A stretch of 64,000 nucleotides of DNA from Tridacna crocea (Eukaryota > Mollusca > Bivalvia > Cardiida > Cardiidae). The notes beneath the pieces are model-generated. The model was not told where the DNA came from, made no database searches, and worked only from the letters and a program-made list of their open reading frames with translations. The stretch is taken from the NCBI GenBank assembly GCA_943736015.1, contig OX031059.1:56121159-56185158 (forward strand). The letters are read 5' to 3'. Both the position numbers and the translations under genes were made by a program. Shown here piece after piece: positions 1-64,000 of this stretch; the first letter of the stretch is position 1, and every line of letters begins with the position of its first letter.

Positions 1-131
1 ATGGATCCATTCTTTTTGTAGATATATTAAGCTCTCTTGTCATAGAGCATGGCTCTCTCTATTGGTATGTGAATGTTCTAAAATCCATGGTTAAAGTTAA
101 GCCCTTGATAAATCTTCTGTAAATAGTGGGT

Positions 132-339
132 TTAACCCTCTACCACACAATCGCAGAATCCTTTCGAAAAGATTATAGGAAAAAGAGAAAATGCTGGTAA
201 CCAGCATTTTCTCCTTTTCCCACAATGTTTTCTAGCCTTCCAAAAAATGAAATTATCATGTGGACCACATTCAATTTGTCGTCTGCAAACACTCTGAACT
301 TGGACGAGTTTAAAATCTTGTCATTTGGTAAAGAATTAA
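132..339 (+). mobile_element. TTAA hairpin element, forward
   Basis: This near-complete copy is TTAA-bounded with an intact central palindrome at 190-222. The family as a whole has a 229 bp consensus length. Its terminal repeat starts CCC/CTC-(A/T)TTACCA and its TTAA target suggests piggyBac-like mobilisation (inferred). No transposase is encoded. Confidence 0.9.
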
Positions 340-1028
340 AGGTTATCAATTTCCTGTTTCACCACATGTAACTTCAACTGTCTGTATCAGAGCAAATTTT
401 TAAATCATAGTCGAGTAGAATCTCATTTTATAACTTTTTCTCCTGATCTAATAATGTACCAGGTAGCAAAAACTGCTGACCATGTAACAATAAATACTGT
501 AACTTTTTTTTTAATTTTCTGAGAAATATATTTACTTAGACCCTCTTCTTAGCAGGGAGAGGGGTGTAGCACCCCACCCCCATGTCTTACCTTTTTGCAT
601 AAATTGGAAGTCTTTATATTTACTAAAGTTCGCTGCTGATTACACAAAACATATATTTTTACTTACAGTAATACCAGAATTGACTGGAATATTTAACATG
701 GAGATGCAAGATCAGACAGCACCGAGTTGAAAGACCAACATAAGAATAGACAGGATGGAATGCCCAACCTACCCCATAACAGATAATGGATGAGGAATGG
801 ATCAATCAGAGAAAGTAACAAGTTACTTTGAATTCTGTTTAAAATCTGGCAGAAGAATTCTACACTATGCTTAATTTCAGTGAAAGACAAAGGTTATTGT
901 TTCCAGTATCAGTATCAAACACAAGAGTGCAATCTGATTAGAACAGGAGCTTATCATTCTGTGCAACCAAGATGGCCAATCTAAATTTTCCCAAGTCTTC
1001 CAAACTCTGTTTCGTTAACTGTTGTTTG
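340..1028. other. gene-free stretch
   Basis: AT-rich spacer. I see no coding exon, and only a weak GATCAGACAGCAC-type repeat fragment near 705. Confidence 0.6.
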
Positions 1029-1255
1029 TAACTCTTTATCAAACGACAAAATTTTAGACTGGTCCAAATTGAAAGCATTTGCAGACGACAAAATTGATAT
1101 GACTAAAAAACTGAATTTTTTTTGGGGAAGGGAAGAAAACATTGTGGGAAAAGGAAAAAATGCTGGTTACCAGCATTTTCTCCTTTTCCCACAGTATTTT
1201 CAGAAGGCTTCTATCTCAGGGTCATGAAAACCAGGGATTGTTTGGGAAAGGTTAA
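1029..1255 (-). mobile_element. TTAA hairpin element, reverse
   Basis: Near full length. The left TTAA has decayed to GTAA. The central palindrome is present, with one substitution in the left arm. Confidence 0.9.
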
Positions 1256-1589
1256 AGAACTCTATCCAAATGAAATGAAAATGGTTTCTGTTCATGATGC
1301 AGAGGTCGGAGATCAATCTCTGTGTCGTCTAATTTATACCTAAAAATTGCTCAAAAACTCAAACCTTGAAGTATCTTATAAATATGTCTTTGCTGCAAGT
1401 TTGATCACACTACACAAAAATTGCAGTCTGATCTTTGGTCTACACTGTCTGAGATATCCTGAATGAAAGTAACCCTAAACAGCAATTATTCTATGGTTTT
1501 TCTCCAGAACAAAAATGTCTGTTGGCTTTATTTGGCTTTTTAAGGGTCCAACTTGGCCCTTTCTATATGAAACCTTGATACATAATCCT

Positions 1590-2115
1590 GAGTTTTAACA
1601 ATTATGTGGAAGAAGGATTTTGATATTATTGTGACCATCATTTTCTCCTTTTCCCACAATGTTCTGTACTAGCTCTATCACAGACAGGAATCATTGTGTG
1701 AACTACATTTAATTGTCATCTGCAATTGCTTTGAATTTGGCAGAGTAGGAAATTTGGTAAAGAGTAGGGAGTTGGTTTACTGTTAAATGACAATTTCTTT
1801 TGTATAACTATGATAAATTAGTAAATTGTAAAACAATATAGGGAAGTCCTGATGTACTCATGTATAAAACAGATAATAATATCATGAACTCTATCTTTTA
1901 TAATATCATGAACTCTATCTTTTAGGATTATCCACACCGAACAAATTTTGCAGACAAACATGGCTAAAACAGAAGGCCTTCACTTTCACACAGTGAAAAA
2001 CATTGTGGAAAAAGTTACAATTCTGATTACTAGTATTTTATTTGTTTCCCACAAACAATTTGGCAACATCCTTTTGCAGGGTCATGAAAGTATGTGATAA
2101 CTTGGTAAAGAGTTA
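1590..2115. mobile_element. two decayed TTAA hairpin elements
   Basis: A forward remnant (1590-1775; ATTTTCTCCTTTTCCCACAA then CATCTGCAA) is followed by a reverse remnant (1934-2115; GCAGACAAACATGGC ... TTGGTAAAGAGTTA). Both palindromes are badly eroded. A duplicated ATATCATGAACTCTATCTTTTA lies between them. Confidence 0.65.
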
Positions 2116-2276
2116 GTTTAAACATATTTATTTTACATCGATTGAGAAACAAGTTCTTACAACTTATACTAATCTCTCTCGATTCTGCTTCCTGGGAACT
2201 TCACCAGTACTCGCGCCAAATGTGTGGGCCAATGAAAAATCCCAAAGTTAAAACCCGCTTTGGGTAAAGAGTTAAC
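2116..2276 (-). repeat. dispersed repeat, copy 1 (SINE body-like)
   Basis: About 85% similar to 5267-5425 (AACAAGTTCTTACAACTTAT ... CCAATGAAAAATCCCAA). The other copy continues into a GGTATCGAACTC box B-like end, so both are probably tRNA-derived SINE bodies on the minus strand. Both start at the same hairpin-element terminus. Confidence 0.7.
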
Positions 2277-2298
2277 CCTTTACCATGCAATTATAAGC

Positions 2299-2526
2299 TT
2301 AACCCATTACCACACAATTCCTACTTTTAACGCCCCTGAGAAAGAAGCCTTTAGAAAACATTGTAGGAAAAGGAGAAAATGATGGTTACCAGCATTTTCT
2401 GCTTTTCCAATAATGTTTTCTACCCTTCATAAAACAAATTTCAAATTTTCGGTCACTTTTATTTTGTCGTCTGCAAATGCTTCGATTTGGACAAGCCTAA
2501 AATATTGTCGTTTGGTTATGACTTAA
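2299..2526 (+). mobile_element. TTAA hairpin element, forward
   Basis: TTAA at both ends, 228 bp. The palindrome carries GATGGTTACC. A second terminus-like fragment (TTAACCCTTTACCATGCAA) precedes it at 2274. Confidence 0.92.
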
Positions 2527-2542
2527 ATGACCATGGAGAGGA

Positions 2543-3301: not shown

Positions 3302-3532
3302 ATAACTCATTGCCACCATACAACAAAATTTAAGACTGGTCCAAATTGAAAGCACTTGCAGACGACAAAATAAACGTAACTCAAAAATGGAAATTTTTTC
3401 CAGCAGACAAAGAAACATTCTGGGAAAAAGAGAAAATGCTGGTTACCAGCATTTTCTCCTTTTCCCACAATGTTTTCAAAAGGCTTCTCTTTCAAGGTCG
3501 TAAAAACCAGGGATTGTTTGGTAAAGGGTTAA
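3302..3532 (-). mobile_element. TTAA hairpin element, reverse
   Basis: 231 bp, with TTAA preserved on the right. The B arm (CAAATTGAAAGCACTTGCAG) is on the left. Confidence 0.92.
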
Positions 3533-4889: not shown

Positions 4890-5100
4890 TTAACTCTTTC
4901 CCACATAATCCCACCTTTTAACGACCTTAAGAAAAACAAAAGCCTTTGAAAACATTGTGGGAAAAGGAGAAAATGCCAGTAACCAATGTTTTCTACCCCT
5001 CCCAGCTCAAATTTCAATTTTTGAATCTCTTTTATTTTGTTGTCTGCAAATACTTTCAATTTGAAGAAGTCTGACATTTTGTCGTTTGGTAAAGAGTTAC
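4890..5100 (+). mobile_element. TTAA hairpin element, forward
   Basis: Near full length but the right half of the palindrome is deleted (CCAGTAACCAATGTTTTC). It ends in TTAC. Confidence 0.88.
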
Positions 5101-5737: not shown

Positions 5738-5969
5738 CTAGCTCTTTAACATAAGACAAAATTCAAGAAACTTCAAATTTGAAAGCATTAACTTGCATAA
5801 TATCAAAAGTAGCTAAAGTGATAGGATCTGTCTGTGAAAGGATGAAAATCATTCTGGACAAACAAAAAAATGCTTGTTACCATCATTTTTTTATATTTTT
5901 CCACAATGTTTTTCAGGAGCACTCTATTTCAGAGTGGTAAAAGCACAGGGTTGTTTGGGAAGGGGTTAA
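5738..5969 (-). mobile_element. TTAA hairpin element, degenerate reverse copy
   Basis: The B arm and stem are recognisable (AATGCTTGTTACCATCATTT). It ends TTGTTTGGGAAGGGGTTAA. Confidence 0.75.
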
Positions 5970-5997: not shown

Positions 5998-6225
5998 TTA
6001 ATCCATTACCACACAATCCCGACTTTTGACGTCCCCGAGAAAGAAGCCTTTTGAAAATATTGTAGGAAAGGGAGAAAATGCTGGTAACCAGCATTTTCTC
6101 CTTTCCCACAATGTCTTCTACCCTTTCAAAACAACCTTTGAAAGTTCTGGTCATATTTATTTTGTCGTCTGCAAATGCCCTCAATTTGGATCAGTCTGAA
6201 GTTTTGTTGTTTGGTAAAGAGTTAT
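5998..6225 (+). mobile_element. TTAA hairpin element, forward
   Basis: 228 bp. The palindrome is intact except for one deleted T in the right stem, and the right TTAA has become TTAT. Confidence 0.92.
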
Positions 6226-7510: not shown

Positions 7511-7710
7511 TTAACCCTTTACCCCATAAGGCATTTCTATGGTATCTCTAACTGACCCTAAATAACAGCAAGGATGAAACCATTTCTTATTTGTATAATA
7601 TGACACCTTTCGATAGGATAAAAAGCATTGTGCAGTCTTTTGCCACGATGTTTTCCAAATGCTCCTACAAGCAATGTGTAGAAATGAGTATCTATGAAGT
7701 AAAGGGTTAA
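7511..7710 (-). mobile_element. subfamily 2 TTAA hairpin element with deleted core
   Basis: The termini match the 17285 and 50191 copies in reverse (CCCCATAAGGCATTTCTATG ... GTAGAAATGAGTATCTATG). Most of the central palindrome is gone. Confidence 0.85.
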
Positions 7711-7718: not shown

Positions 7719-7935
7719 TTATCCCTTTACCACACAATGACGACTAGGAAAGAAGCCTTTTGAAAACATTTTGGGAAAAGGAGAAAATGCTGGTAACCAG
7801 CATTTTCTCCTTTTCCCAAAATGTTTTCAACTCTATCAAAAAATGATTGCACTGTTTGAGCCACATCAAAATTGTCGTCTGCAAATGCTTACAATTTGGA
7901 CACGGTTCAAATTTTGTTGTCTGGTAAAGGGTTAC
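7719..7935 (+). mobile_element. TTAA hairpin element, forward, with a compensated stem change
   Basis: The stem reads CATTTTGGGAAAAGG on the left and CCTTTTCCCAAAATG on the right, so a base differing from consensus is matched on the other arm. Ends are TTAT and TTAC. Confidence 0.92.
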
Positions 7936-8964: not shown

Positions 8965-9192
8965 ATTCAATTCTTTATCGAACAATGCTGAATTTCTATC
9001 AACCCAAAGGAGAAAGGTTTTTGACAAAATGAGGGAAAATGAGGAAATGCTGGAAACCAACATTTTCTACATCTCTCCCCAACCTATTCTACCATGTCAT
9101 AGAAAAATTCCATTATTATGAGCAATTATCTAAATTCTCACCTTCATATGCTTGGACAAGTATAAAAATTGTGTTATTTTGTAAAGAGTTTA
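8965..9192 (+). mobile_element. TTAA hairpin element, degenerate forward copy
   Basis: Stem remnant GAAATGCTGGAAACCAACATTTTC. The B arm ends TTGTAAAGAGTTTAA. Confidence 0.65.
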
Positions 9193-9520: not shown

Positions 9521-9593
9521 GTGATTGAGTAAAACAATCCAACTACAGTTAAAAAGAAAGCTAACATTTAACTAAATAACAAATTTATTTACA

Positions 9594-9978
9594 TGCCCAA
9601 ATTGATAGCTTCAACAGAGAACAAATCAGATGTAGGTTTAATGATGTAATTTGAAAGGGTACAAAGCATGTGGTAAAATGACAAAATGCTTGTAACCAGG
9701 GTTTTCTCCTTTTCCCACAATATTTTGGAAAGGCTTTTTCCTCAGGATCTTAAAACATGGGATTCCTTGGTAGAGGATTTATGACATTTGATGCAAGTAT
9801 TTAGCACAAAAAGTTCTAGACAAGTTGGTAAAATCTGTAGATGACAAACTCAATGTTTAAATAATGGGATTTCTCTTGAATGATTGAGGGAAAGAACAAA
9901 ATAATAATTAATACCTTGTTTCTAAAGCCTGCTTTTTGAGGGTTATAAAAACAATAGATAGTTTGGTTAAAAATTTAG
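9594..9978 (-). mobile_element. two decayed reverse TTAA hairpin elements
   Basis: Copies at 9594-9781 (AATGCTTGTAACCAGGGTTTTC) and 9810-9978 (TGTAGATGACAAACTCAATG then TTGAGGGTTATAAAAAC). Both are strongly eroded. Confidence 0.6.
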
Positions 9979-10041: not shown

Positions 10042-10272
10042 TTAACCCATTACCACACAATCCCTTAACTTTTGACAACAGTGAGAAAGAAGGCTGTAGA
10101 AAACATTGTGGGATTGGGAGAAAATGCTGGTAACCAGCATTTTCTCCTTACCCCACAATGTTTTCTACACTTCACAAAGCAAATTTCAAATTTTCTGTCA
10201 CTTTTATTTTGTCGTCTGCAAATGCTTTCGATTTGGACAAACCTAAAATTTTGTCGTTTGGTAATCAGTTAA
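10042..10272 (+). mobile_element. TTAA hairpin element, forward
   Basis: 231 bp, TTAA at both ends, palindrome nearly perfect. Confidence 0.95.
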
Positions 10273-10950: not shown

Positions 10951-11179
10951 TTAACTCATTACCAAACGACAAATTTACGGAGTGGTTCAAATTGAAAGCA
11001 TTTGCAGACGACAAAATAAAAGTGACTGAAAATTTGAAATTTGTTTTGTGAAGGGTAGAAAACATTGTGGGAAAAGGAGAAAATGCTGGTTACCAGCATT
11101 TTCTCCTTTTCTCACAATGTTTTCTAAAGGCTTCTTTCTCGGGGTCATCAAAAGTAGGGATTGTGTGGTAATGGGTTAA
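10951..11179 (-). mobile_element. TTAA hairpin element, reverse
   Basis: Exactly 229 bp. The palindrome has a single mismatch (TTTTCTCAC in the right stem). Confidence 0.96.
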
Positions 11180-12044: not shown

Positions 12045-12271
12045 TTAACCCATTACCACACAATCCCTACTTTTGACACCCCTGAGAAAGACCTTTAGAA
12101 AACATTGTGGGAAAAGGTGAAAATGCTAGTAATCAGCATTTTCTACTTTTCCCACAATATTTTCTACCCTTCACAAAACAAATATCAAATTTTCAGTCAC
12201 TTTTATTTTGTCGTATGCAACTGCTTTCAATTTTGACAAGTCTAAAATTTTGTTGTCTGGTAATGAGTTAA
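12045..12271 (+). mobile_element. TTAA hairpin element, forward
   Basis: 227 bp, TTAA at both ends. Scattered stem mismatches (GCTAGTAATCAGC). Confidence 0.93.
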
Positions 12272-12562
12272 CTAAATGACAAAATTTTGAAGTGTCCAAA
12301 TTGAAAGCACTTACAGGTGACAAATTAAAATTTAACCCTTTGCCAAACAATCCTGGTTTTTACCATCATGGGAAAAAATCTTTAGAAAACATAGTGGGAA
12401 AAGGAGAAAATGCTGGTAATCAGCAGTTTCTCCGCCTCCCAAAATGTTTTCTCTCTTATCAAAGAGAGAAAACATAATTTCAGCAACAATTAATTTGCCA
12501 TCTGCAATTGCTTTTAATTTCGATCAGTCTAAAAGGTTATTTTTTGTTTGTTGAAGAGTTAT
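12268..12562. mobile_element. B-arm fragment joined to a forward TTAA hairpin element
   Basis: 12268-12331 is a reverse B-arm fragment sharing its TTAA with the previous copy. 12332-12562 is a forward copy (TTAA to TTAT) with a decayed right stem. Confidence 0.85.
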
Positions 12563-13747: not shown

Positions 13748-13976
13748 TTAACTCTTTACCACACAACAAAATTTTAGACTGGTTCAAATTGAAAGCATTT
13801 GCAGATGACAAAAAAAAGGTGACTGAAAAATTAAAATTTGTTCTGGGAAGGGTAGAAAACACTGTGGGAAAAGGAGAAAATGCTGGTTACCAGCATTTTC
13901 TCCTTTTTCAACAGTGTTTTCAAAAGGCTTCTTTCTCAGGGGCGTCAAAAGTAGGGATTGTGTGGTAATGGGTTAA
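13748..13976 (-). mobile_element. TTAA hairpin element, reverse
   Basis: 229 bp with TTAA at both ends. Has the CACTGTG/CAGTG version of the outer stem. Confidence 0.95.
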
Positions 13977-14704: not shown

Positions 14705-14933
14705 TTAACCCATTACCACACAATCCCTACTTTTTATGCTCCTGGAAAAGAAGCCTTTTGAAAACATTGTGGGAAAAGGAGAAAATGCTGGTAACCAGCA
14801 TTTTCTCCTTTTCCCACAATGTTTCCAACCCTTCACAAAACAAATTTTAAAATTTCAGTCACTTTTATTTAGTCGTCTGCAAATGCTTTAGATTTGGACA
14901 AGTCTAAAATAATGTCGTCTGGTAATGAGTTAA
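14705..14933 (+). mobile_element. TTAA hairpin element, forward
   Basis: 229 bp, TTAA at both ends, perfect central palindrome. Confidence 0.96.
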
Positions 14934-16409: not shown

Positions 16410-16638
16410 TTAACCCATTACCACACAATCCCTACTTTTGATGCCCCTGAGAAAGAAGTCTTTAGAAAACATTGTGGGAAAAGGAGAAAATGCTGGTAAC
16501 CAGCATTTTCTCCTTTTTCCACAATGTTTTCTACCCTTCCAAAGACAAATTTCAAATTTTCAGTCACTTTTATTTTGTAGTCTGCAAATGTTTTTAATTT
16601 GGACTAGTCTAAAAATTTGTCGTTTGGTAAAGAGTTAA
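16410..16638 (+). mobile_element. TTAA hairpin element, forward
   Basis: 229 bp, TTAA at both ends. Confidence 0.96.
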
Positions 16639-17284: not shown

Positions 17285-17513
17285 TTAACCCTTTACTCCA
17301 TAGATACTCATTTCTACACATTGCTTATAGGAGCCTTTGGAAAACATTGTGGCAAAAGGTGAAATTGCTCGTGACGAGCAATTTCACCTTTTGCCACAAT
17401 GTTTTCTATGCTATCAAAAGGTGTCATATACACATAAGAACCAGCTTCATCCTTGTTGTTATTTAGGGTCAATTAGAGATACCATAGAAATGCCTTATGG
17501 GGTAAAGGGTTAA
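17285..17513 (+). mobile_element. subfamily 2 TTAA hairpin element, intact
   Basis: 229 bp, TTAA at both ends, but with different internal arms (ACTCCATAGATACTCATTTC; TAGAGATACCATAGAAATGC) and a different, fully self-complementary stem (GTGGCAAAAGGTGAAATTGC). The only other intact copy is 50191-50419. Confidence 0.96.
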
Positions 17514-18078: not shown

Positions 18079-18298
18079 TTAACTCTTTTCCACACGACAA
18101 AATTTTAGCCTGGTTCAAATTGAAAGCATTTGCAGACAACAAAATAAAGGTGACTAAAAAATTGAAGTTTGTTCTCGGAAGGATAGAAAACACCGTAGGA
18201 AAAGGAGAAAATGCTGGTTACCAGCATTTTCTCCTTTTCCCATAATGTTTTCTAAAGCCTTCCTTCTCAGGGGCGTCAAAAGTGTGGTAATGCGTTAA
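18079..18298 (-). mobile_element. TTAA hairpin element, reverse
   Basis: 220 bp, TTAA at both ends. Short deletion in the A arm. Confidence 0.93.
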
Positions 18299-18922: not shown

Positions 18923-19150
18923 TTAAATCTTTACCAAATAAGCCCTGGTTTTAACGACTCTTGGAAAGAAGCCTTTTGAAAACATTGGTTGAAAAAGAGA
19001 AAATGCTGGTAACCAGCATTTTATCTTTTTACAACGATGTTTACAAATCTATCAAGGTCAAATTCCTTCATCTGTGCCACTTTTGATTTGTTGTCTGCAA
19101 ATGTTTTCCATTTGGACAAGTCTAAACTCTGTTGTTTGGTAAAAAGTTAA
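18923..19150 (+). mobile_element. TTAA hairpin element, forward
   Basis: 228 bp, TTAA at both ends, moderately diverged stem. Confidence 0.92.
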
Positions 19151-19157: not shown

Positions 19158-19385
19158 TTAATCCTTTCCCAAACTAGCCCAGGTTTTTATGTGTCTGCAG
19201 TAAAAGTCTTTTGAAAACACTGTGGGAAAAGGAGAAATTGCTCATAACGAGCAATTTCTCCCTTTCCCACAGTGTTTTCTACCCTTTTTGAGAACTTCCT
19301 GCCATTTTCTCCAAATCTAAAATTGTCGTCTGCAAACTCTTTTGGTTTGGAAGAGTCCAAAATTTGTCATTTGGGAAAGGGTTAC
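19158..19385 (+). mobile_element. subfamily 3 TTAA hairpin element
   Basis: The inner stem is GAAATTGCTCATAACGAGCA instead of the ATGCTGG type, with outer stem CACTGTGGG/CCCACAGTG. Other members are at 36069, 40570 and 49478. Confidence 0.93.
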
Positions 19386-22792: not shown

Positions 22793-23228
22793 GTAAATCC
22801 TTTAGACTTTTATCGCACAATCCAAAGTTCAAAAACCTTAAGGAAGAAATCTTTTGAAAGCATTGTAGAAGAAAGAGAAATCGCTGGCATCTCCTCTTTT
22901 TTTCTCCCAGTTTTCCACTCAACTGATGGCAAATTTTACTGTATGAGTCGCCTTTCATCACTTGTCTGCAAATGCTTTAAATCATTACCAAACAACAAAA
23001 CTTTAGACTGGTCCATATTCGAAGGATTTGCAGACGACAAATTAAATGTGACTGAAAGGATGATTTTTGTTTTTTGATAGGGAAGAAAACATTGTGGGAA
23101 AAGGAGAAAATGCTGGTTACCAGCATTTTCTCCTTTTCCCACAATGTTTTCAAAAGTCTTCTCCTACACAGTTGTTAAAACTCGGGATTGTGTGGTAATG
23201 GGTTAAATGCTGTTGTGTGGTAAAGAGT
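22793..23228 (+). mobile_element. forward TTAA hairpin element interrupted by another copy
   Basis: The outer copy runs 22793-22976 to TGTCTGCAAATGCT and resumes at 23207 (TGTTGTGTGGTAAAGAGTT). A complete reverse copy lies exactly between. Confidence 0.8.
22977..23206 (-). mobile_element. TTAA hairpin element, reverse, nested
   Basis: 230 bp, TTAA at both ends, perfect palindrome, inserted in the outer forward copy. Confidence 0.94.
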
Positions 23229-26806: not shown

Positions 26807-27034
26807 TTAACCAATTACCACACAATCCCTACTTCTGACGACCCTCAGAAAGACGCCTTTAGAAAACATTGTGGGAAAAGGAGAAAATGCTGGTTACCAG
26901 CATTTTCTCCTTTTCCCACAATGTTTTCTACCCTTCGTAAAACAAATTTCAAACTTTCAGTCACTTTTATTGTGTCATCTGCAAACGCTTTCAGTTTGGA
27001 CCAGTCTAAAATGTTCTTGTTTGGTAATGAGTAA
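26807..27034 (+). mobile_element. TTAA hairpin element, forward
   Basis: Perfect palindrome. The right terminus has decayed to GAGTAAAA. Confidence 0.95.
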
Positions 27035-28105: not shown

Positions 28106-28334
28106 TTAACCCATTACCACACAATCCCTACTTTTGACGCCCCCGAAAAAGAGGCCTTGAGAAAACACTGTAGGAAAAGGAGAAAATGCTGGTAACCAGC
28201 ATTTTCTCCTTTTTCCACAATGTTTTCTATCCTTTACAAAATAAGTTTCAAATTTTCAATTACTTTCATTTTGTCGTCTGCAAATCCTTTCGATTTGGAC
28301 AAGCCCAAAATTTTGCCATTTGGTAATGAGTTAA
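28106..28334 (+). mobile_element. TTAA hairpin element, forward
   Basis: 229 bp, TTAA at both ends. Confidence 0.95.
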
Positions 28335-29127: not shown

Positions 29128-29484
29128 AGCAAAGCCCTTTATCATACAATACAACATTTTATCAACCCTGGGGCATTTTTGTAGCCTTTGAAAACATTGT
29201 GTGAAAAGCAGAAAATACTTGTTTTCAGCATCATCTTCTTTTCCTCCTGATGGATTTCTACCCTTTTAGCCCTTTACCACAAAGTCCTGACTTTTAAGAA
29301 GCCTGAGAAAGAAGCCTTTTGAAAACAATTTGGGAAAAGCAGAAAGTAACCAGATTTTGTCCTTTACAATGTTTTCTACCATTCTCAAAACAATTTTCGA
29401 CTCTTCAGTCACTTCTGTTTTATCGGCTGCAAATGCTTTCAATTTGGACCAGTCTTAAAATTTTGTCATTTGGTAAAGAGTTAA
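29128..29484 (+). mobile_element. two forward TTAA hairpin elements in tandem
   Basis: A decayed, 3'-truncated copy (29128-29266) is followed by a longer one (29267-29484) whose palindrome has collapsed to GAAAGTAACCAGATTTTGTC. Confidence 0.82.
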
Positions 29485-29722: not shown

Positions 29723-29951
29723 TTAACTCTTTACCAAACAACAAAATTTTGGACCAGTCCAAATTGAAAGCATTTACAGACTACAAAATAAATGCGAGTC
29801 AAAAATTGAAATTTGATTTGTAAAGGATAGAAAAGATTGTGGGAAAAGGAGAAAATGCTGGTTTCCAGCATTTTCTCTTTTTCCCACAATGTTTGTAAAG
29901 GCTTTCTTCCTCAGGGTCGTTAAAAGTCAGGATTGTGTGGTAAAGGGTTAA
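29723..29951 (-). mobile_element. TTAA hairpin element, reverse
   Basis: 229 bp. Its right TTAA is shared with the next element. The central base pair region reads CTGGTTTCCAGC. Confidence 0.95.
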
Positions 29952-33376: not shown

Positions 33377-33747
33377 AACTGCCTTTCACCAGAGCATGGC
33401 TTGTATTCAACAGTATCTGCAAAATTCTAAAACGAGAGGGACTGGACCATTGAGCAAGATTTCCACTGGTAGTTACAAGTAATTTTCTCCATTTGCCATT
33501 ATGATTTTCAAAAAATAACTCTCCACCATATGACGAAGTTTTAGACTTTTCAAAATTAGAAGCATTTCATAGGCGTAATTTCTACTACGCACACCACATA
33601 CGTGCGTAATGTAAAAAAAAAATCGAGAATAAGTTGTAGGTTGCCTCTTTTTCGCGTATTTTTCAGTTTGGCCCTTTTCTAAAACAGCAAAGATTAGAAA
33701 ACCAAATTTCTACCTTGGAAGAGGCTCGAAATCATTCTACAGCCATC
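33377..33747. other. gene-free stretch
   Basis: Holds a faint hairpin-element trace near 33470-33580 (TTTCTCCATTTGCC ... GAAGTTTTAGAC) and nothing coding. Confidence 0.5.
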
Positions 33748-33976
33748 TTAACCCTTTCCCAAACAATCCCTGGTTTTTACGGGTCAGGAATAAAAGCCTT
33801 TTGAAAACATTGTGGGAAAAGGAGAAAATGCTGGTAACCAGCATTTTCTCCTTTTCCCACATTTTTTTCTACCCTATCATATAGAAAAATCATCTTTTTA
33901 ACAACTGTTAATTTGTCATCTAGAAAATGCTTTGAATTTGGTCTGGTCCAAAATTTGCCGTTTGGGAAAGGGTTAA
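33748..33976 (+). mobile_element. TTAA hairpin element, forward
   Basis: 229 bp, TTAA at both ends. The termini are of the TTCCCAAAC type. Confidence 0.95.
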
Positions 33977-34097
33977 ATATAAAAATTTTCTTGGAGGATG
34001 CCCCCCAAACACCTCGTGTTCTCCCTGCACTCACGCATACGGCGTGCATACAATTTACTTTTTCTTGGTTACTCCCCTGCATTTACATGCTGCAGAT

Positions 34098-34329
34098 TAT
34101 CTCTTTACCACGCAACAAAATACTAGGCCTGTCAAAATTGAAAGCATAAATTTTGCAGACCACAAAATAAATGTGACAGAAAAATTGAGATATGTTTTGA
34201 AAAGGGTAAAAAATCAATGTGGCAAAAGGAGAAAATGTTGGTTACCGGCATCTTCCCTTTTCTCCGACAACGTTTTTTGAAAAGGCTTCTTTTCTCGTCA
34301 AAAGTCGGGATTGTGTGGTAAAAGGTTAA
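34098..34329 (-). mobile_element. TTAA hairpin element, reverse, diverged
   Basis: The palindrome has several mismatches (GTTGGTTACCGGCATC). Confidence 0.9.
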
Positions 34330-34658: not shown

Positions 34659-34888
34659 TTTAACCGTTTACCAAACAATCCCTGGTGTTTACTACACTGA
34701 GATAGAAGCCTTTGGAAAACACTGTGGGAAAAGGAGAAAATGCTGCTAAACAGCATTTTCTCCTTTTCCCATAGTGTTTTCTACCCTGATCGAAACAAAT
34801 TTTAATTTTTGACTTATGTTTATTTTGTCGTCTGCAAGTGCTTTCAATTTGAATCAGTCTAAAATTTTGTTGCTTGGGAAAGGGTTAA
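34659..34888 (+). mobile_element. TTAA hairpin element, forward
   Basis: 230 bp, TTAA at both ends, centre GCTGCTAAACAGC. Confidence 0.94.
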
Positions 34889-35166: not shown

Positions 35167-35369
35167 TTAACCCATTACCACACAATCCCTACTTTTGACG
35201 CCGCTGAGAAAGAAGCCTTTAGAAAACATTGTAGGAAAATGCTGGTAACCAGCAATGTTTTCTACCCTTCACAAAACACATTACAAATTTTCAGTCACTT
35301 TCATTTTGTTGTCTGCAAACGCTTTCAATTTAGACCAGTCTAAAATAATGTTGTTTGGTAATGGGTTAA
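35167..35369 (+). mobile_element. TTAA hairpin element, forward, short stem
   Basis: The stem has lost its GGAGAAA portion (GGAAAATGCTGGTAACCAGC). TTAA at both ends. Confidence 0.92.
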
Positions 35370-35531: not shown

Positions 35532-35764
35532 TTAACCCTTTACCAAACGATAAAATTTTAGACTGGTCCAAATTGGAAGCACTTGTAGATGATGAAATAA
35601 ATATTACCAGTACTCAAAAATTGAAATTTGTTTCCCGCAGGGTAGAAAACATGGTGGGAAAAGGTAACCAACATTTTCTCCTTTTTCCACAATGTTTTTT
35701 TTTTTTTTCAAAAGGCATCTATATCAGGGTCGTAAAAACCAGGGATTGTTTGGTAAAGAGTTAA
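35532..35764 (-). mobile_element. TTAA hairpin element, reverse, loop deleted
   Basis: The centre is missing (GGGAAAAGGTAACCAACATT). A long T run has replaced part of the right arm. Confidence 0.9.
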
Positions 35765-36068: not shown

Positions 36069-36296
36069 TTAACCCATTCACAAACGACAAATTTTGCACC
36101 CTTCCAAACCTAAAGGGTTTGCTGATGACAGTTTTAGATTTGGAGAGAATGGCAGAAAGTTCTCAAAAAGAGTAGAAAACACTGTGGGGAAAGGAGAAAT
36201 TGCTCGTTACGAGCAATTTCTCTTTTTCCCACAGTGTTTTTAAAAGACTTTTACTGCAGACATGTAAAAACCAGGGCTTGTTTGGGAAAGGGTTAA
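36069..36296 (-). mobile_element. subfamily 3 TTAA hairpin element, reverse
   Basis: Core GAAATTGCTCGTTACGAGCA with outer CACTGTG/CACAGTG. Its right TTAA is shared with the next copy. Confidence 0.94.
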
Positions 36297-36521
36297 GTTT
36301 CTACCAAACAACAAAATTCTAGACTGTTCAAACTGAAAGTTTTGCAGATGAAAAAATAAACGTAACCCAAAAATTGAAATTTGTTTCCAGCAGGGAAGAA
36401 AACATTGTGGGAAAAGGAGAAAATGCTGGTTACCTGCATTTTCTCCTATTCCCACAATGTTTTCAAAAGGCTTCTATCTCAGGGTGGTCAAAACCTGAGG
36501 GATTGTTTGGGAAAGGGTTAA
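36293..36521 (-). mobile_element. TTAA hairpin element, reverse
   Basis: Abuts the previous copy at a single TTAA. Perfect stem except for two positions. Confidence 0.94.
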
Positions 36522-36864: not shown

Positions 36865-37073
36865 TTAACTCTTTACCACACAATCCCGACTTAACAACCT
36901 TGTGAAGGTAAACTTTTGAAAACATTGTCGGAAAAGGAGAAAATGCTGGTAAACCACAATGTTTTCTTCCCTTCCCAAAACAAATTTCAAATTTTCAGTC
37001 ATTTTTATTTTGTCGTCTGCAAATGCTTTCAATTTGAACCAGTCTAAAATTTTGTCTTTTGGTAAAGTGTTAA
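36865..37073 (+). mobile_element. TTAA hairpin element, forward, right stem deleted
   Basis: TTAA at both ends. The stem is cut to GAAAATGCTGGTAAACCACA. Confidence 0.92.
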
Positions 37074-37351: not shown

Positions 37352-37538
37352 TTAACCCTTTTCCACACAATTACAACTTTTAACGCCTTTTGAATACATT
37401 CTGGGAAAAGGAGAAAATGCTTTTCTACCTTATCAAAGTGAAATCGCACCATTTGTTCAGCCACTTTGAAATTGTCGTCTGCAAATGCTTCCAACTTGGA
37501 CAGGTCTAAAATTTTTTTGCTGTATGGTAACTGATTAA
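37352..37538 (+). mobile_element. TTAA hairpin element, forward, core partly deleted
   Basis: TTAA at both ends. The right stem is missing after GAAAATGC. Confidence 0.9.
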
Positions 37539-38312: not shown

Positions 38313-38540
38313 TTAACCCATTACCAAACGACAATATTTTAGACTGGTTGAAATTGAAAGCATTTACAGACGACAAAATAAAACAGACTAAAAATTTGAA
38401 ATTTTTTTGTGAATGATAGAAAACATTGTGGGAAAAGGAGAAAATGCTGGTTACCAGCATTTTCTCCTTTTCCCACAATGTTTTCCAAAGGCTTCTTTCT
38501 CAGGGGCGTCAAAAGTAGGGACTGTGTGGTAATGGGTTAA
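38313..38540 (-). mobile_element. TTAA hairpin element, reverse
   Basis: 228 bp, TTAA at both ends, perfect palindrome. Confidence 0.96.
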
Positions 38541-38740: not shown

Positions 38741-38969
38741 TTAACTCTTTACCAAATGACAAAATATTAGACTGGTCCAAACTCAAAGCACTTGCTGACA
38801 ACATAATAAACCTAACCAAACAATTGAAATTTGTTTTGGAAAGGGTAGAAAACATTGTGGGAAAAGGAGAGAATGCTGGTTACCAGCATTTTCTCGTTTT
38901 CCCATCATGTTTTCAGAAGGCTTCTTCTATAGGGGTGTTGAAAGTCTGGATTTTGTGGTAAAGGGTTAA
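38741..38969 (-). mobile_element. TTAA hairpin element, reverse
   Basis: 229 bp, TTAA at both ends, three stem mismatches. Confidence 0.95.
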
Positions 38970-40569: not shown

Positions 40570-40776
40570 TTAACCCTTTCCAAAACAAGCCCTGGTTTTT
40601 ATGTGTCTACTGAAAAAGTCTTTTGAAAACACTGTGGGAAAAGGAGAAATTGCTCGTAACAGTGTTTTCTAGCCTTTTTGAGAACTTTCTGCCATTTTCT
40701 CAAAATCTAAAATTGTCTTCTGCAAACTCTTTGAGTTTGGAAGATTTCAAAATTTTGTCGTTTGGGAAAAGGTTAA
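40570..40776 (+). mobile_element. subfamily 3 TTAA hairpin element, right stem deleted
   Basis: Closely matches 19158-19385 (AGCCCTGGTTTTTATGTGTCT) but jumps from GCTCGTAAC straight to AGTGTTTTC. Confidence 0.92.
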
Positions 40777-40796: not shown

Positions 40797-41007
40797 TTAA
40801 CCCTTTACCACACAGCCCCAAGTTTTAAAGAAACATAGAGAGAAACCTTTGGAAAAAATTGTGGAAAAAGGAGAAAATGCAGTTTACCAGCATTTTCTCT
40901 TTTTCCCACAATGTTTTCCACTCAATCAGTGAGAAATATACTTTTTTTTGTCCTCTGTAAATGCTTTCAAATTTGATGGGTAAAATTTATTGTTTGGAAT
41001 AGAGTGC
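40797..41007 (+). mobile_element. TTAA hairpin element, forward
   Basis: Left TTAA intact; the right terminus is degenerate. Confidence 0.88.
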
Positions 41008-42353: not shown

Positions 42354-42597
42354 TTAACCCTTGACTGTATGATGCCGACTTTTAACGACTCTGGAAAAGA
42401 AGCCTTTTGAAAACATTGTGGGAAAAGAAGAAAATGCTAGAAAATACTGGTAACCAGCATTTTTTTTCTTTTCCCACAGTGTTTTCTTGTGACCCTTTCA
42501 AAGAAAGACTTCCCCATTTCATACACATTGAAATCGCCGTATGCAAATGTTCTCAATTTGGAACAGGCTAAAATTTTGTGGTTTGGTAAAGGGTTAA
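42354..42597 (+). mobile_element. TTAA hairpin element, forward, insertion in the stem
   Basis: The left stem has an extra TAGAAAATAC. The right TTAA is shared with the next copy. Confidence 0.93.
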
Positions 42598-42822
42598 CCC
42601 ATTACCACACAATCCCTAATTTTGACGCCCCCGAGAAAGAAGCCTTTTGAAAACACTGTGCGAAAAGGAGAAAATGCTGGTAACCAGCATTTTCTCCTTT
42701 TCCCACAGTGTTTTCTATCCTTCCCAGAACAAATTCCAATTTTTCAGTCACCTTTATTTAGTCGTCTGCAAATGCTTTCAATTTGGACCAGTCTAAAATT
42801 TTCTTGTGTGGTAAAGGGTTAA
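42594..42822 (+). mobile_element. TTAA hairpin element, forward
   Basis: 229 bp. Outer stem of the CACTGTG/CACAGTG type, with one unpaired G to C change in the left arm. Confidence 0.96.
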
Positions 42823-43501: not shown

Positions 43502-43732
43502 TATAACCCTTTCCCAAACGACAAACTTTCGAACCAGACTAAATTCAAAGCATTTGCAGACGACAATTCAACTCTTGCTGAAAAGATGATTTCTGTCTAT
43601 GATAGGGCAGAAAACATTGTGGGAAAAGGAGAAAATGCTGGTTACCAACATTTTCTCCTTTTTCCACAATGTTTTCAAAAGGCTACTATTCCAGAACCAT
43701 AAAAACCAGGGATTGTTTGGGAAAGGGATAAA
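43502..43732 (-). mobile_element. TTAA hairpin element, reverse
   Basis: 231 bp. Ends decayed to TATAA and GATAA; the stem is good. Confidence 0.93.
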
Positions 43733-45618: not shown

Positions 45619-45847
45619 TTAACCCATTACCACATGACAATATTTTAGACTGGTCCAAATTGAAAGCGTTTGCAGACGACAAAATAAAAGTGACTAAAAA
45701 TTTGAAATTTGTTTTTTGAAGGGTAGAAAACATGGTGGGAAAAGGAGAAAATGCTGGTTACCAGCATTTTCTCCTTTTCCCACAATGTTTTCTAGAGGCT
45801 TCTTTGTCAGGGGCGTCAAAAGTAGGGATTGTGTGGTAATGGGTTAA
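45619..45847 (-). mobile_element. TTAA hairpin element, reverse
   Basis: 229 bp, TTAA at both ends, perfect palindrome. Confidence 0.96.
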
Positions 45848-45953: not shown

Positions 45954-46182
45954 TTAACCCATTACAACACAATCCCTACTTTTGATGCCCCTGAGAAAGA
46001 AGCCTTTAGAAAACACTGTGGGAAAAGGAGAAAATGCTGATAACCAGCATTTTCTCCTTTTCCCACAATGTTTTCTACCCTTCACAAAACAAATTTCAAA
46101 TTTTCAGTCACTTTTATTTTGTCATCTGCAAATGCTTTCAATTTGGACCAGTCTAAAATACTGTCATTTGGTAATGAGTTAA
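45954..46182 (+). mobile_element. TTAA hairpin element, forward
   Basis: 229 bp, TTAA at both ends. Confidence 0.96.
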
Positions 46183-50190: not shown

Positions 50191-50419
50191 TTAACCCTTT
50201 ACTCCATAGATACTCATTTCTACGCATTGCTTGTAGGAGCCTTTGGAAAACATTGTGGCAAAAGGTGAAATTGCTCGTGACGAGCAATTTCACCTTTTGT
50301 CACAAAGTTTTCTATGCAATCAAAAGGTGTCATATACTCATAAGAAATGGCTTCATCCTTGCTGTTATTCAGGGTCAGTTACAGATACCATAGAAATGCC
50401 TTATGGGGTAAAGGGTTAA
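50191..50419 (+). mobile_element. subfamily 2 TTAA hairpin element, second intact copy
   Basis: 229 bp like 17285-17513 and highly similar along its whole length. One stem position has decayed (TTTTGTCACAAAG). Confidence 0.96.
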
Positions 50420-50492
50420 ACACATTTGATATCACACTGGTGTGACATCATTTTTGACGTCATTTTGTATACATTGTATTCCATTATGTAAT

Positions 50493-52744: not shown

Positions 52745-52973
52745 TTAACACTTTCCCAAACGACAAAATTTTAGACCGGTCCAAATTGAAAGCACTTGCA
52801 GACGGCAAAATAAATGTAATTCAAAAATTGAAACTTGACTTTAGAGGAGTAGAAAACATTGTGGGAAAAGGAGAAAATGCTGGTTACCAGCATTTTCTCC
52901 TTTTCCCACAATGTTTTCAGAGGGCTTCTTCCTCTGGGTCGTAAAAACCAGGGATTGTTTGGTAAAGGGTTAA
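52745..52973 (-). mobile_element. TTAA hairpin element, reverse
   Basis: 229 bp, TTAA at both ends, perfect palindrome. Confidence 0.96.
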
Positions 52974-54111: not shown

Positions 54112-54339
54112 TTAACACTTTTCCAAACAACAAAATTTTAGACTGGTCCAAATTGAAAGCATTTGCAGATGACAATTTAAATGTGACTAAAGAATTGAAA
54201 TTTGATTTAGGAATGGAAGAAAACATTGTGGGAAATGGAGAAATGCTGGTGACCAGCATTTTCTCCTTTTCCCACAATGTTTTTTAAAGGCTTCTATCTT
54301 AGTGTCATCAAAAGTAGGGATCGTGCGGTAATGGGTTAA
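54112..54339 (-). mobile_element. TTAA hairpin element, reverse
   Basis: 228 bp, TTAA at both ends. Confidence 0.95.
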
Positions 54340-57190: not shown

Positions 57191-57191
57191 G

Positions 57192-58758: not shown

Positions 58759-58987
58759 TTAACCCATTACCACACAATCCCTACTTTTGATGCCCCTGTG
58801 AAAGAAGCCTTTTGAAAACACTGTGGGAAAAGGAGAAAATGCTGGTGACCAGCATTTTCTCCTTTTCCCACAGTGTTTTCTATCCTTCCCAGAACAAATT
58901 TCAATTTTTCAATCACCTTTACTTTGTCGTCTGCAAATGCTTTCAATTTGGACGAGTCTAAGATTTTCTCGTGTGGTAATGGGTTAA
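58759..58987 (+). mobile_element. TTAA hairpin element, forward
   Basis: 229 bp, TTAA at both ends. The outer stem is CACTGTG with matching CACAGTG. Confidence 0.96.
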
Positions 58988-59265: not shown

Positions 59266-59486
59266 CCCCATTACAAGAGGGGACAATTTTAGACCTATTC
59301 AAATAAAAACATTTGCAGACGACAATTTCAAACCATGGCTAAAATGGTGCAATTTTTGTTTTGATAGGGTAGAAAACTTTGTGGGAAAAGGAGAAAATGC
59401 TGGTTACGAGTATTTTCTCCTTCTCTTACAATGCTTTCGAAAGGCTTCTTCCTCAGGGTATTTAAAAGCTGATATTGTGTGGTTAA
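59266..59486 (-). mobile_element. TTAA hairpin element, reverse
   Basis: Left terminus degenerate (CCCCATTACAAGAGG). The right TTAA is shared with the next copy. Confidence 0.9.
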
Positions 59487-59711
59487 CCCGTTACCACACA
59501 ATCCCTACTTTTGACGCCCCTGAGAAAGAAGCCTTTTGAAAACATTGTGGTAAAAGGAGAAAATGCTGGTAACCAGCATTTTATCCTTTTCCCACAATGT
59601 TTTCTACCCTTCACAAAACAAATTTCAAATTTTCAGTCACTTTTATTTTGTTGTCTGCAAATGCTTTCAATTTGGACAAGTCTAAAATACTGTCGTCTGG
59701 TAATGAGTTAA
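59483..59711 (+). mobile_element. TTAA hairpin element, forward
   Basis: 229 bp, TTAA at both ends. Confidence 0.96.
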
Positions 59712-60390: not shown

Positions 60391-60622
60391 ATAACCCTTT
60401 ACCAAACAATCCCTGATTTTCACGACCCTGGGAAGGAAGGCTTTTGAAAACATTGTGGAAAAAGGAGAAAATGTTGGTGACCATCATTTTCCTTTTTTTC
60501 CACAATGTTTTCTACCCCATCAACTTAGGCACAAACCATAATTTAAGCTTCATTTAAATTATCGACTTCAAATGCTTTTGGTTTGATCAGGTCCAAAATT
60601 TTGTCGTGTGGTAAAGGGTTAA
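60391..60622 (+). mobile_element. TTAA hairpin element, forward
   Basis: Right TTAA intact. Stem diverged (GTTGGTGACCATC). Confidence 0.92.
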
Positions 60623-60953: not shown

Positions 60954-61183
60954 TTAACTCATTACCAAACAACAAAATACTAAGTCTGTCCAAATCAAAA
61001 GCATTGGCAGACGACAAAATAAAAGTGACTGAAAATTTGAAATATGTTTTGTGAAGGGTAGAAAACTTTGTGGGAAAAGGAGAAAATGCTGGTTACTAGC
61101 ATTTTCTCCTTTTTCCCATTATGTTTTCAAAAGGCTTCTTTCTAAGGGTCGTCAAAAGAAGGGATTGTATGGTAATGGGTTAA
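60954..61183 (-). mobile_element. TTAA hairpin element, reverse
   Basis: 230 bp. The right TTAA is shared with the next copy. Confidence 0.95.
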
Positions 61184-61410
61184 CTCTTTACCAAACGACA
61201 AAATTTTAGACTGGTCCAAATTGAGAGCACTTGCAGACGACAACATAAATGTAACTCAAAAAGTAAAATTTGTTTCAAGCAGGGGATAAAACATTTTAGG
61301 AAAAGGAGAAAATGCTGGTAACCAGCATTTTATCCTTTTCCCACAATGTTTTTTCAAAAGACTTCTTTCTCAGGGTCGTTAAAAGTCGGGATTGTGTGGT
61401 AAAAGGTTAA
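61180..61410 (-). mobile_element. TTAA hairpin element, reverse
   Basis: 231 bp, head-to-tail with the previous copy. The central base is A, as in forward copies. Confidence 0.95.
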
Positions 61411-61638: not shown

Positions 61639-61869
61639 ATAACTCATTACCACACAATCCCTACTTTTGACGCTCCTGAGAAAGAAGCCTTAAGAAAATA
61701 TTGTGGGAAAAGGAGAAAATGCTGGTAACCAGCATTTTTTCCTTTTCTCACAATGTTTTCTACCCTTCACAAAACAAATTTCAAATTTTTTGTCACTTTT
61801 ATTTTGTAGTCTTCAAATGCTTTCGATTTGGACAAGCCTAAAATATTGTCGTTTGGTAATGTCTGTTAA
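61639..61869 (+). mobile_element. TTAA hairpin element, forward
   Basis: Ends slightly decayed (ATAAC on the left, CTGTTAA on the right). Confidence 0.93.
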
Positions 61870-61997
61870 TCAATATGAACAAGATTCCTGAAATCTCAAA
61901 AAAAATTAACTTGTTATAGGCAATTTCTCCTTTTGTCTCAATGTTTTCAAAAGCAGTTTGCAGCCGCACTGAAAGAGTTGTCCCTAGGAGCCAATAT

Positions 61998-62178
61998 CAA
62001 AACACTAGGCTCACCCAAACTGAAAGCATTTGCAGACAACAGTATTGAATTTTTTTTATGGAAGGGTAGAAAACATTTTGAGAAAACGAGAAAATACTAG
62101 AAATCGGCAATTTCTCCTTTTTCCATGTTTCTTCTTCCTCAGGAACATTTAAATACAAGATTGTATGGTAAGGGGTTG
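61998..62178 (-). mobile_element. TTAA hairpin element, degenerate reverse copy
   Basis: B arm CCAAACTGAAAGCATTTGCA. Eroded stem (ATACTAGAAATCGGC). A separate right-stem fragment lies at 61918-61955. Confidence 0.8.
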
Positions 62179-62535
62179 ATATACAAGATTTATGATTTAG
62201 AGTAAGAAAATTAAAGTCTACGAGAAAAAAGATCAAAGTCCATAATTATTATGACAAAATGCTCTTTTCTATTATAATCATAATTTATCATTTTTTTTTT
62301 CAACCCATTACACAGAAAATATGAATTTTATTCCTTTGTAAACACCTTGGCTTTGTTACAACCAATTTTGCTCCTTTTTTCAAGGTGTTTCCATGGTTAT
62401 TAAATTAGAAAGTTTTTTTTTCCTCCCTCTCTGTTACTTGGAAGTATTTTTTTGCAATGTGCAACAATAGATTAGGTGAGTGACCTTTGACAATCATTCC
62501 CATGAGAGGTCACTAAGTTGGTCGGGGAATTCTTT
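62179..62535. other. gene-free stretch
   Basis: Nothing recognised. Confidence 0.5.
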
Positions 62536-62764
62536 TTAACCCTATATCACACAATGCTGAGTTATAACGGCTTTGTGAAAGAAACCTTTTGAAAACATTG
62601 TGGGAAAAGGAGAAAATGCTGGTAACCAGCATTTTCTCCTTTTTCCACAATGTTTTCTTCCCTTCCTTAAACAAATTTCGTTTTTGTAGTCACATTTATT
62701 TTGTCATCTGAGAATGCTCTCAATATAATTCAGTCTAAAATTTTGTTGTTTTGTAAAGAGTTAA
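62536..62764 (+). mobile_element. TTAA hairpin element, forward
   Basis: 229 bp, TTAA at both ends. Confidence 0.95.
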
Positions 62765-63073
62765 TGAAATGTATATCATTTTACATATAAGTTTTGTCCA
62801 TTATAAACTGAGAACATAATCTCTCTGTCGATGTTAGCTGATACACTGATAAAAAGCCAAATAAACAAAATGGACATTTGCAGACAGAAAAAAAATCCCC
62901 TACATTATTTTAAAAAAATATTGCTTTTCTCAGCTAGGGCCAAGGGAATAAATTAAATTCTGCAACAAACCCAGTGAAATAAGGACCAGAAACAAACAAA
63001 ATGTCATATAATTATATGTAGATGAAAAGAATTTCTCCTTTAGCCACAATGTTGGCAAAAATCAATGGTAAGC

Positions 63074-63475
63074 CATCTTCGAAAGCCAAGGCTGATGATT
63101 CACTACGCTTCTCTACCCTTGGTGGATCGAGCTTGATTTTTGCACTCCCCCGATATGCTTTTTCATTGGATGCAGCCAGCTCTAACTGCAACTAATGAAA
63201 TTGCTTGTAGCATTTCATCTTTGATAAAAATAGAATAAGGTTGCTACCTTTCGAATAGAAGGTAAACATGAAAACCCACGAGGATGTCTGCTTATCGCTT
63301 CATGTGTATTTGTAAGCGGTTTGTAAAACAATATTTCAATGGCTTTTAGAAATATGATGTAAAGGGGGGTAATAACCAGCATCTAATAGAGGGTGCATCG
63401 CAGGAATCTCGAAATCAGGCTCAATCAGCCAAGGTAAGATCCATGTAGTGATCGTAACCTTGGCTCACAAAGATG
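63074..63475 (+). mobile_element. Mutator-like MITE, copy C
   Basis: Ends CATCTTCGAAAGCCAAGGCT and CCTTGGCTCACAAAGATG. Flanked by the perfect 9 bp duplication ATGGTAAGC at 63065-63073 and 63476-63484. Confidence 0.93.
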
Positions 63476-63502
63476 ATGGTAAGCTTGTCCTATCATCAGT
63501 AT

Positions 63503-63685
63503 TTGACCCTTTACCGGATGACAAAACTTTAGCATTGATGCAACTTTTCTTCAACAGGGTAGGAAGTATTGAGGAAACAGGAAAAAATGCTGGTTACCAG
63601 CATTTTCTCCACTTCCCTTCTTCCTTTTTGAAAAGGCATCTTTCTCAAGGTTGTTAAAAGTCGTTACTGTGTGGTAAAGGGTTAC
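63503..63685 (-). mobile_element. TTAA hairpin element, reverse, B arm shortened
   Basis: Starts TTGACCCTTTACCGGATGAC. Stem partly decayed. Ends GGGTTAC. Confidence 0.88.
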
Positions 63686-63904
63686 AGTAACTGCTTTGTT
63701 TCCTTCTAGAGGCTGAAGTAACAACATTTTTGCTATGTTAATTGGAGATGTCATCAGACCTCTCCAACAGTGGTGAGTTTAAAAGGTGGAGTGCCAAAGA
63801 ATTTGCTGCCTAAATCCATTTTTCTTGTGGAACTGTACTGATGCACAGTCTGTTTCATCATGATTTTGTAAATAAATAAATGACGAATATCAGAAAAATA
63901 TTTG

Positions 63905-64000
63905 TTAACCCATTACCACACAAGCCCTACTTTTGACGCCCCTGAGAAAGAAGCCTTTTGAATACACTGTGGGAAAAGGAGAAAATGCTGTTAACCAGCA
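63905..64000 (+). mobile_element. TTAA hairpin element, forward, cut by the window edge
   Basis: A arm, left stem and centre (GCTGTTAACCAGCA) are visible. The rest lies beyond 64000. Confidence 0.93.

Follow-up and report, generated by a model that had tools for sequence, protein, structure and literature searches.

What allows a single family of small transposable elements to be so successful that it fills about 18% of a 1-Gb genome? The question is posed by a 64,000-bp stretch of the genome of the bivalve Tridacna crocea (assembly GCA_943736015.1, contig OX031059.1, here C4:56121159-56185158; hereafter the window), which is crowded with copies of one 229-bp miniature inverted-repeat transposable element (MITE) bounded by TTAA. 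Within each element lies a 67-bp palindromic core whose two arms tend to change together. On balance, we favor the explanation that this is a large family of piggyBac-type MITEs in which copies with an asymmetric core rarely act as parents, the core putatively being read as a symmetric unit.

When the window was scanned with a profile derived from 21 full-length, oriented copies, 207 matches were obtained; 20 dinucleotide-shuffled versions of the window yielded 0. Removal of overlaps left 111 non-overlapping segments, fragments counted (58 on the + and 53 on the - strand), which cover 20,549 of 64,000 bp (32.1%); 57 of them are near full length. These values bear out the original prediction, made from the letters of the window alone, of about 100 copies in both orientations that cover some 30% of the window, about 60 of them near full length. 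The consensus, derived from 49 window copies, is 229 bp long. Many copies were said to have exactly this length including both TTAA, and indeed 21 of the 57 near-full ones measure 229 bp. An exact TTAA stands at both ends in 39 of the 57, as it does in 55 of 92 near-full copies in stretches elsewhere in the genome. The left end reads TTAACCC(T/A)TTACCA and the right end TTAACTC or TTAACCC, with TTAACTC(T/A)TTACCA as the right consensus; the predicted end motif, CCC/CTC-(A/T)TTACCA, agrees with these sequences, and the inverted repeats are imperfect. The element is thus laid out as TTAA, a short imperfect inverted repeat, a left flank to position 55, the core at positions 56-122, a right flank from position 123, and TTAA.

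Short, dispersed in both orientations and without a transposase gene of its own, the element has the properties of a MITE, and the dispersal of copies in both orientations throughout the genome rules out a locus-specific cluster or satellite. No transposase reading frame was found in the copies examined. Among the listed stop-to-stop frames that run through copies, none is longer than 127 codons apart from a 153-codon frame (37078-37539) overlapping one copy, and a Pfam search of 10 long open reading frames of the window, some of which overlap copies, found no transposase domain and returned one weak PAS_12 match below the cut-off. An exact 24-mer of the core had 0 matches in a viral contig set and 0 in a genome contig set, and no palindromic piggyBac MITE of this kind was found in the literature, represented mainly by titles and the openings of abstracts.

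The element had been described as a hairpin. This description holds for the off-centre core, in which 33-bp arms surround one central base at element position 89 of 229, and fails for the remainder of the element, which is not palindromic. Pairing, still 87% at the last arm position (33), drops to 7% three positions outward, a collapse that excludes the whole element as a hairpin. In five window cores both arms agree with the consensus and the pairing is perfect, and as single-stranded DNA the core is predicted to fold into one long stem of -37 kcal/mol. The core is also the least diverged part of the element. In the 92 near-full copies from the 20 stretches sampled elsewhere, median divergence from the window consensus is 4.5% in the core versus 18.6% in the flanks, about four times lower, and the core is less diverged than the flanks in 90 of the 92; mean column conservation in the window is 0.92 for the core versus 0.81 and 0.79 for the flanks. 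MITEs are usually best conserved at their ends, and a core that is the most conserved part is therefore unusual.

Comparison of subfamilies gives a similar picture, with gapped alignments of subfamilies A and B yielding 84-87% identity in the core and 57-67% in the flanks. Subfamily B, represented by the copies at 17285 and 50191 (both whole, 229 bp) and by the damaged copy 7511-7710, has strongly diverged flanks, a longer inverted repeat at its tips and a further short inverted repeat inside. The cores of B and C are set apart from that of A by changes found in both arms.

This joint change of the two arms was assessed in the window, in the other stretches and genome-wide. The window test used the 60 of 111 cores in which both arms resemble the consensus at 24 or more of 33 positions; these contain 30 identical two-arm changes, compared with a mean of 7.2 and a maximum of 20 in 10,000 arm permutations. 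A pair counter applied to 56 cores (52 distinct) registered 26 double-change cells, compared with 6.8 in shuffles and 8-13 when partners were slid; the covariation score of the 56 cores was 0.090, compared with 0.038-0.045 under sliding. In the independent stretches, where core orientation was set by the centre base, 73 cores at a threshold of 27/33 hold 34 double changes (5.0 expected, maximum 15), and 104 cores at the loosest threshold hold 53 versus about 14. Two-arm cases in these stretches exceed the number predicted by independence at position 8 (10 versus 1.5), position 26 (7 versus 0.6) and position 31 (6 versus 0.4). On a tree built from flanks only, and scoring only rows with TT or CC, the two-arm T>C change at position 8 requires at least four changes, though many branches of this tree are weak and its bootstrap is not settled. 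Two-arm changes private to single window copies number 10 versus 3.9 at the loose threshold and 3 versus 1.7 at the strictest.

The inner 25-mer of the core permits the same comparison genome-wide. Its unchanged form occurs 242,497 times and a form with two pairs changed in both arms 29,913 times; the mixed form, in which only one of the arms carries the change and of which about 53,000 copies would be expected if arms assorted freely, was found 16 times. Since the two-pair variant may stem from one founding event, single pairs were tested as well, and since copies differ in age, which inflates double changes, a non-partner pair was measured as a control for heterogeneity. This control gave 672 doubles versus 296 expected (singles 15,343 and 9,351), a factor of 2.27. 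For G>C at pair 31 there are 899 one-arm and 28 two-arm forms, compared with 0.8 expected and 1.9 after the heterogeneity control. For G>A at pair 28 there are 9,351 one-arm and 275 two-arm forms, compared with 90 expected and 205 after the control, so that the excess at this pair is modest. The first 20 of the 28 pair-31 sites have very diverse flanks (nearest to A in 16, C in 3 and B in 1, several weakly), indicating that the change arose more than once. Outside the searched 25-mer, the pair-31 loci carry 28 two-arm changes versus 5.5 expected, or 20 versus 4.6 without locus L062, which judging by its letters seems to have a one-base insertion in both arms; its eight two-arm cells look like a shift artefact of this small two-arm insertion.

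Deletions also bear on the core. Alignment of 60 copies (57 near full, 3 others) reveals 32 deletions of 5 bp or more, and the 11 that overlap the core are about as many as its length predicts. Eight start within element positions 85-95, at the core centre, an interval picked after viewing the data. In six of the eight the left arm is mostly intact and the right arm is cut (copies 4890, 26116, 35532, 36865, 37352 and 40570); removal of the left arm only was seen in 0 of the eight, and a 6-bp left-arm deletion (positions 81-86) is present at 29266. A polarity of core deletions is possible in this small sample, and deletions starting at the centre would fit folding of the palindrome in vivo, as secondary evidence.

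The individual copies in the window are listed below; rows marked near-full are profile matches kept after overlap removal, and remarks on cores derive from arm comparison or alignment.

132..339, +, near-full copy
1029..1253, -, near-full copy
2299..2526, +, near-full copy
3303..3532, -, near-full copy
4890..5099, +, near-full copy, right core arm cut
5739..5969, -, near-full copy
5998..6224, +, near-full copy
7511..7710, -, subfamily B copy, damaged, core partly deleted
7720..7934, +, near-full copy, arm position 10 changed in both core arms
8969..9190, +, near-full copy
9562..9779, -, near-full copy
10042..10272, +, near-full copy
10951..11179, -, near-full 229-bp copy, TTAA at both ends
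12045..12271, +, near-full copy
12332..12561, +, near-full copy
13748..13976, -, near-full 229-bp copy, TTAA at both ends, arm position 8 changed in both arms
14705..14933, +, near-full 229-bp copy, TTAA at both ends
16410..16638, +, near-full 229-bp copy, TTAA at both ends
17285..17513, +, subfamily B, 229 bp, outer arms diverged, four core changes, each in both arms
17340..17406, +, palindromic core of subfamily B
18079..18298, -, near-full copy
18924..19150, +, near-full copy
19158..19384, +, near-full copy, subfamily C (three two-arm changes, two one-arm)
22977..23206, -, near-full copy, perfect core
26807..27034, +, near-full copy, perfect core
26862..26928, +, 67-bp core palindrome, 33/33 pairs
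28106..28334, +, near-full 229-bp copy, TTAA at both ends
29267..29484, +, near-full copy
29723..29951, -, near-full 229-bp copy, TTAA at both ends
31056..31277, -, near-full copy
31408..31632, -, near-full copy
32893..33126, -, near-full copy
33147..33377, +, near-full copy
33748..33976, +, near-full 229-bp copy, TTAA at both ends
34097..34329, -, near-full copy
34660..34888, +, near-full 229-bp copy, empty site recognisable in paralogue 43313-43403
35167..35369, +, near-full copy, core partly deleted in both arms
35532..35764, -, near-full copy, right core arm cut
36069..36296, -, near-full copy, subfamily C, TTAA shared with copy 36293..36521
36293..36521, -, near-full 229-bp copy
36865..37073, +, near-full copy, right core arm cut
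37352..37537, +, near-full copy, right core arm cut
38313..38540, -, near-full copy, perfect core
38741..38969, -, near-full 229-bp copy
40570..40776, +, near-full copy, subfamily C, right core arm cut
40797..41005, +, near-full copy
42354..42597, +, near-full copy, TTAA shared with copy 42594..42822
42594..42822, +, near-full 229-bp copy, arm position 8 changed in both arms
43504..43730, -, near-full copy
45619..45847, -, near-full 229-bp copy
45954..46182, +, near-full 229-bp copy
50191..50419, +, subfamily B, 229 bp (four two-arm changes, two one-arm)
52745..52973, -, near-full 229-bp copy, perfect core
54112..54339, -, near-full copy
58759..58987, +, near-full 229-bp copy, arm position 8 changed in both arms, arms perfectly paired
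59483..59711, +, near-full 229-bp copy, best profile score
60032..60243, -, near-full copy, two two-arm changes, two one-arm
60392..60622, +, near-full copy
60954..61183, -, near-full copy, TTAA shared with copy 61180..61410
61180..61410, -, near-full copy
61640..61862, +, near-full copy
62536..62764, +, near-full 229-bp copy, TTAA at both ends

The family is not confined to this locus. In the assembly as a whole (1,048,827,098 bp in 31 contigs), a 31-bp piece of the core has 183,553 exact occurrences and its reversed control 0. Twenty stretches of 10 kb on contigs C1-C12, placed by hand and therefore not a strictly random sample, contain 227 segments in 200 kb, 92 of them near full, with a mean coverage of 19.4% (range 3.2-55.9%). 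The direct estimate from these stretches is 1.19 million segments, bootstrapping over stretches giving 0.85-1.60 million segments and 14.0-25.5% coverage; scaling by the 31-mer instead yields 0.97-1.13 million segments, covering 17-18% of the genome. At an estimated million or so segments, filling about 18% of the genome, the family is comparable in scale to Alu in humans. Within the window the exact 31-mer occurs 21 times, or 0.33 per kb versus a genome mean of 0.175 (about 1.9-fold), and coverage lies inside the range of the other stretches. The locus had been thought extreme in density, with an ordinary density for the species named as the outcome that would speak against this; the locus is denser than average yet ordinary in kind, and it is the family itself that the same data make extraordinary. 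The spread of divergences among copies supports the further proposal that amplification took place over a long time.

The borders of the copies indicate how they were inserted. When the sequences on either side of the copy at 34660-34888 are joined, they align with a paralogue (43403-43313) that lacks the insertion and holds a single TTAA, and this clean empty site, together with the TTAA ends, shows insertion with duplication of TTAA. Empty-site alignments for copies 36865 and 45619 run across a mutated target, and those for 12045, 18923 and 21445, in which the partners are other family copies, are weaker. At ten junctions one TTAA is common to two copies or fragments. Published piggyBac terminal inverted repeats (TIRs) begin with CCCTT, CCCAT, CCCTC or CACTA, typically with CCCTT or CCCAT (PMC10813416). 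Members of the Kolobok superfamily, including the KolobokP solo repeats, likewise duplicate TTAA and occur in molluscs, and have termini of the form 5'-RR...YY-3' (PMC9587614). It is nevertheless very improbable that the family is a Kolobok-type rather than a piggyBac-type MITE: its ends begin 5'-CC or 5'-CT, and Kolobok membership was rejected on this difference. Unlike the two-purine start of Kolobok, the CCC-type termini fit piggyBac, and the family shares with the piggyBac superfamily and its MITEs the TTAA at both ends, short inverted repeats starting with CCC and, in the MITEs, the lack of a transposase of their own. The predicted piggyBac-type, TTAA-targeting MITE is thus upheld by the TTAA ends, the CCC termini and the one clean empty site; as far as such sequence features can tell, the assignment of these copies to non-autonomous piggyBac-type insertions is supported by ends and target site, and not by a partner gene.

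The genome contains candidate partners, the piggyBac transposase domain having at least 118 matches in it; some of these are fragments of a single gene, and many lie in open frames of roughly 460-670 codons. Paired TIRs starting with CCC are recognisable at 7 of the 18 loci that were fetched, reading CCCTTTATATAC at L029, L042 and L043, CCCTAGTCATGC or close to it at L031 and L037, CCCATTTATGCC at L034 and CCCTTTCAGYGC at L036, and L044 has a single end of this type. At six of these loci (L029, L042, L043, L037, L034 and L036) the piggyBac element appears complete, with a length of about 2.6-2.9 kb, long open frames and TIRs of 12-13 bp, imperfect at L036. Several equal-scoring transposase matches elsewhere hint at recent piggyBac copies, and broken domain matches are clustered on contig C8 at about 56.71-56.76 Mb and on C13 at about 4.48-4.61 Mb.

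The explanation we favor for the symmetric core is that copies would be inserted at TTAA by a transposase supplied in trans, that those with a non-symmetric core would rarely become parents of new copies, and that the core would be read as a symmetric unit during transposition, as a recognition or folding module of the copies that multiply. This module could take the form of a two-fold site bound by a transposase dimer, or of a hairpin or cruciform, and one central site could serve both ends of a short element, aiding amplification. In the window, two-arm changes are concentrated at the level of subfamilies and their private excess is weak, such that symmetry seems to be kept mostly in copies that multiply. 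Moreover, unbiased conversion between arms would not slow change in the core, and its low divergence therefore argues for selection on sequence plus symmetry. In piggyBac and piggyBat, paired C-terminal domains (CRD dimers) bind palindromic sites in the transposon ends (PMC11707139); by analogy this is a precedent for symmetric sites, not for a 67-bp site in the middle of an element. The palindromes of those transposons are shorter and lie near the ends (PMC11707139), whereas in the family described here the 67-bp central palindrome is the most conserved part. More tentatively, the central palindrome may be a putative third functional module beside the two ends, required by transposase assembly or by a factor that reads hairpins; its symmetry would be enforced in each round of copying, the arms would evolve as a unit, and it would have helped the family to reach about a million copies and near a fifth of the genome.

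Several observations weigh against this explanation. The partner gene that was to share the ends of the MITE was not found: none of the 18 loci fetched from the 118 listed piggyBac-domain matches has a transposase gene with these ends, and the TIRs at the seven loci agree with them over at most the first seven bases. An intact TTAA is kept in only one of the six empty-site alignments shown. The palindromes bound by CRD dimers, at 14-19 bp, are far shorter than 67 bp (PMC11707139). Pairs changed on both sides number 10 of 33, more than in shuffles (4.7) but not more than in slid controls (7-10), and some paired changes may come from conversion between arms without selection, as the counts at pair 28 (275 versus 205) illustrate.

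The last of these points belongs to the main rival, in which repair or replication, through template switching in the palindrome or gene conversion in a cruciform, keeps the arms alike, later copies inherit the result, and no function is needed. We regard this as unlikely, though it deserves serious attention: rarer changes also show a two-arm excess after the heterogeneity control (28 versus 1.9 at pair 31, and that at pair 28), L062 seems to carry its one-base insertion in both arms, and eight core deletions begin at the palindrome centre, as if it folded in vivo. The very diverse flanks of the pair-31 loci, a sign of repeated origin, are compatible with either mechanism. However, conversion in its unbiased form leaves the rate of change unslowed, whereas core divergence is about a quarter of that in the flanks, and among well-preserved window copies private changes are little in excess (3 versus 1.7 at the strictest threshold).

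It is improbable that subfamilies were simply founded by chance from a few perfect-palindrome master copies, in the absence of both selection and conversion. MITE families grow from few masters, the big variant consists of two linked pairs, so that its 29,913 copies may be one founding event, and the cell counts inherit the relatedness of copies, the two-sided pairs (10) lying within the slid controls (7-10). Yet several different pairs depart from independence in the other stretches (positions 8, 26 and 31), the two-arm change at position 8 requires at least four changes on the weakly supported flank tree, and the pair-31 loci, with their diverse flanks, hold 20 further two-arm changes versus 4.6; the low divergence of the core would also be left unexplained. 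Less probable still is selection of the core as an RNA hairpin, for example in a transcript that is processed or attracts proteins. A perfect 33-bp stem would fold strongly, as the predicted folding of the single-stranded DNA indicates, but one-arm changes that would keep a G-U pair show no bias between the two possible transcribed strands (43 versus 47 in 56 cores), and a scan of the window with Rfam gave 0 matches at gathering score. This genome offers one long palindrome in hundreds of thousands of natural copies, and its unchanged, one-arm and two-arm forms can be counted exactly for each pair, which makes both arm-to-arm repair in animals and symmetry-driven success of MITEs open to test.

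The family resembles other small repeats to differing degrees. Bacterial REPINs and REP sequences are likewise small, perhaps mobile and built of palindromes; they belong to bacteria, do not duplicate TTAA and depend on an unrelated enzyme, and the likeness is one of behaviour only. The pearl, CvA and DTC84 elements of bivalves are also small mollusc MITEs, and DTC84 has a palindrome conserved near a repeat junction (PMC5139131). These elements carry internal satellite-like tandem repeats, whereas the ten tandem repeats recorded in the window are no recurring part of the copies. One of the window's arrays, at 23553-24268, comprises 4.3 copies of a 166-bp unit with 79% matches. Its look would suit a mollusc, but published BIV160 primers match it no better than shuffled primers do.

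The window contains further palindromes and repeats that are separate from the MITE. A second palindromic family of 136-220 bp, 78-87% self-complementary, has two copies (11234-11369 and 57187-57402), and a third, of about 68 bp, is found at 24572-24639 with relatives at 17107-17169, 47613-47686 and 6348-6454. Palindromes of 75, 103 and 182 bp, 77-93% self-complementary, are located at 31923-31997, 50492-50594 and 15567-15748, and a masked self-comparison of the window found no second copy of these three. A 400-bp interspersed repeat is present in three copies that are 87-91% alike (8546-8936, 32246-32647 and 63074-63475). Finally, a MITE-free zinc-finger exon, which we take to be GLIS-like and hence a mark of an animal genome, occupies 19608-21278; it matches Pfam zf-C2H2_15, and its best PDB match by sequence is GLI.

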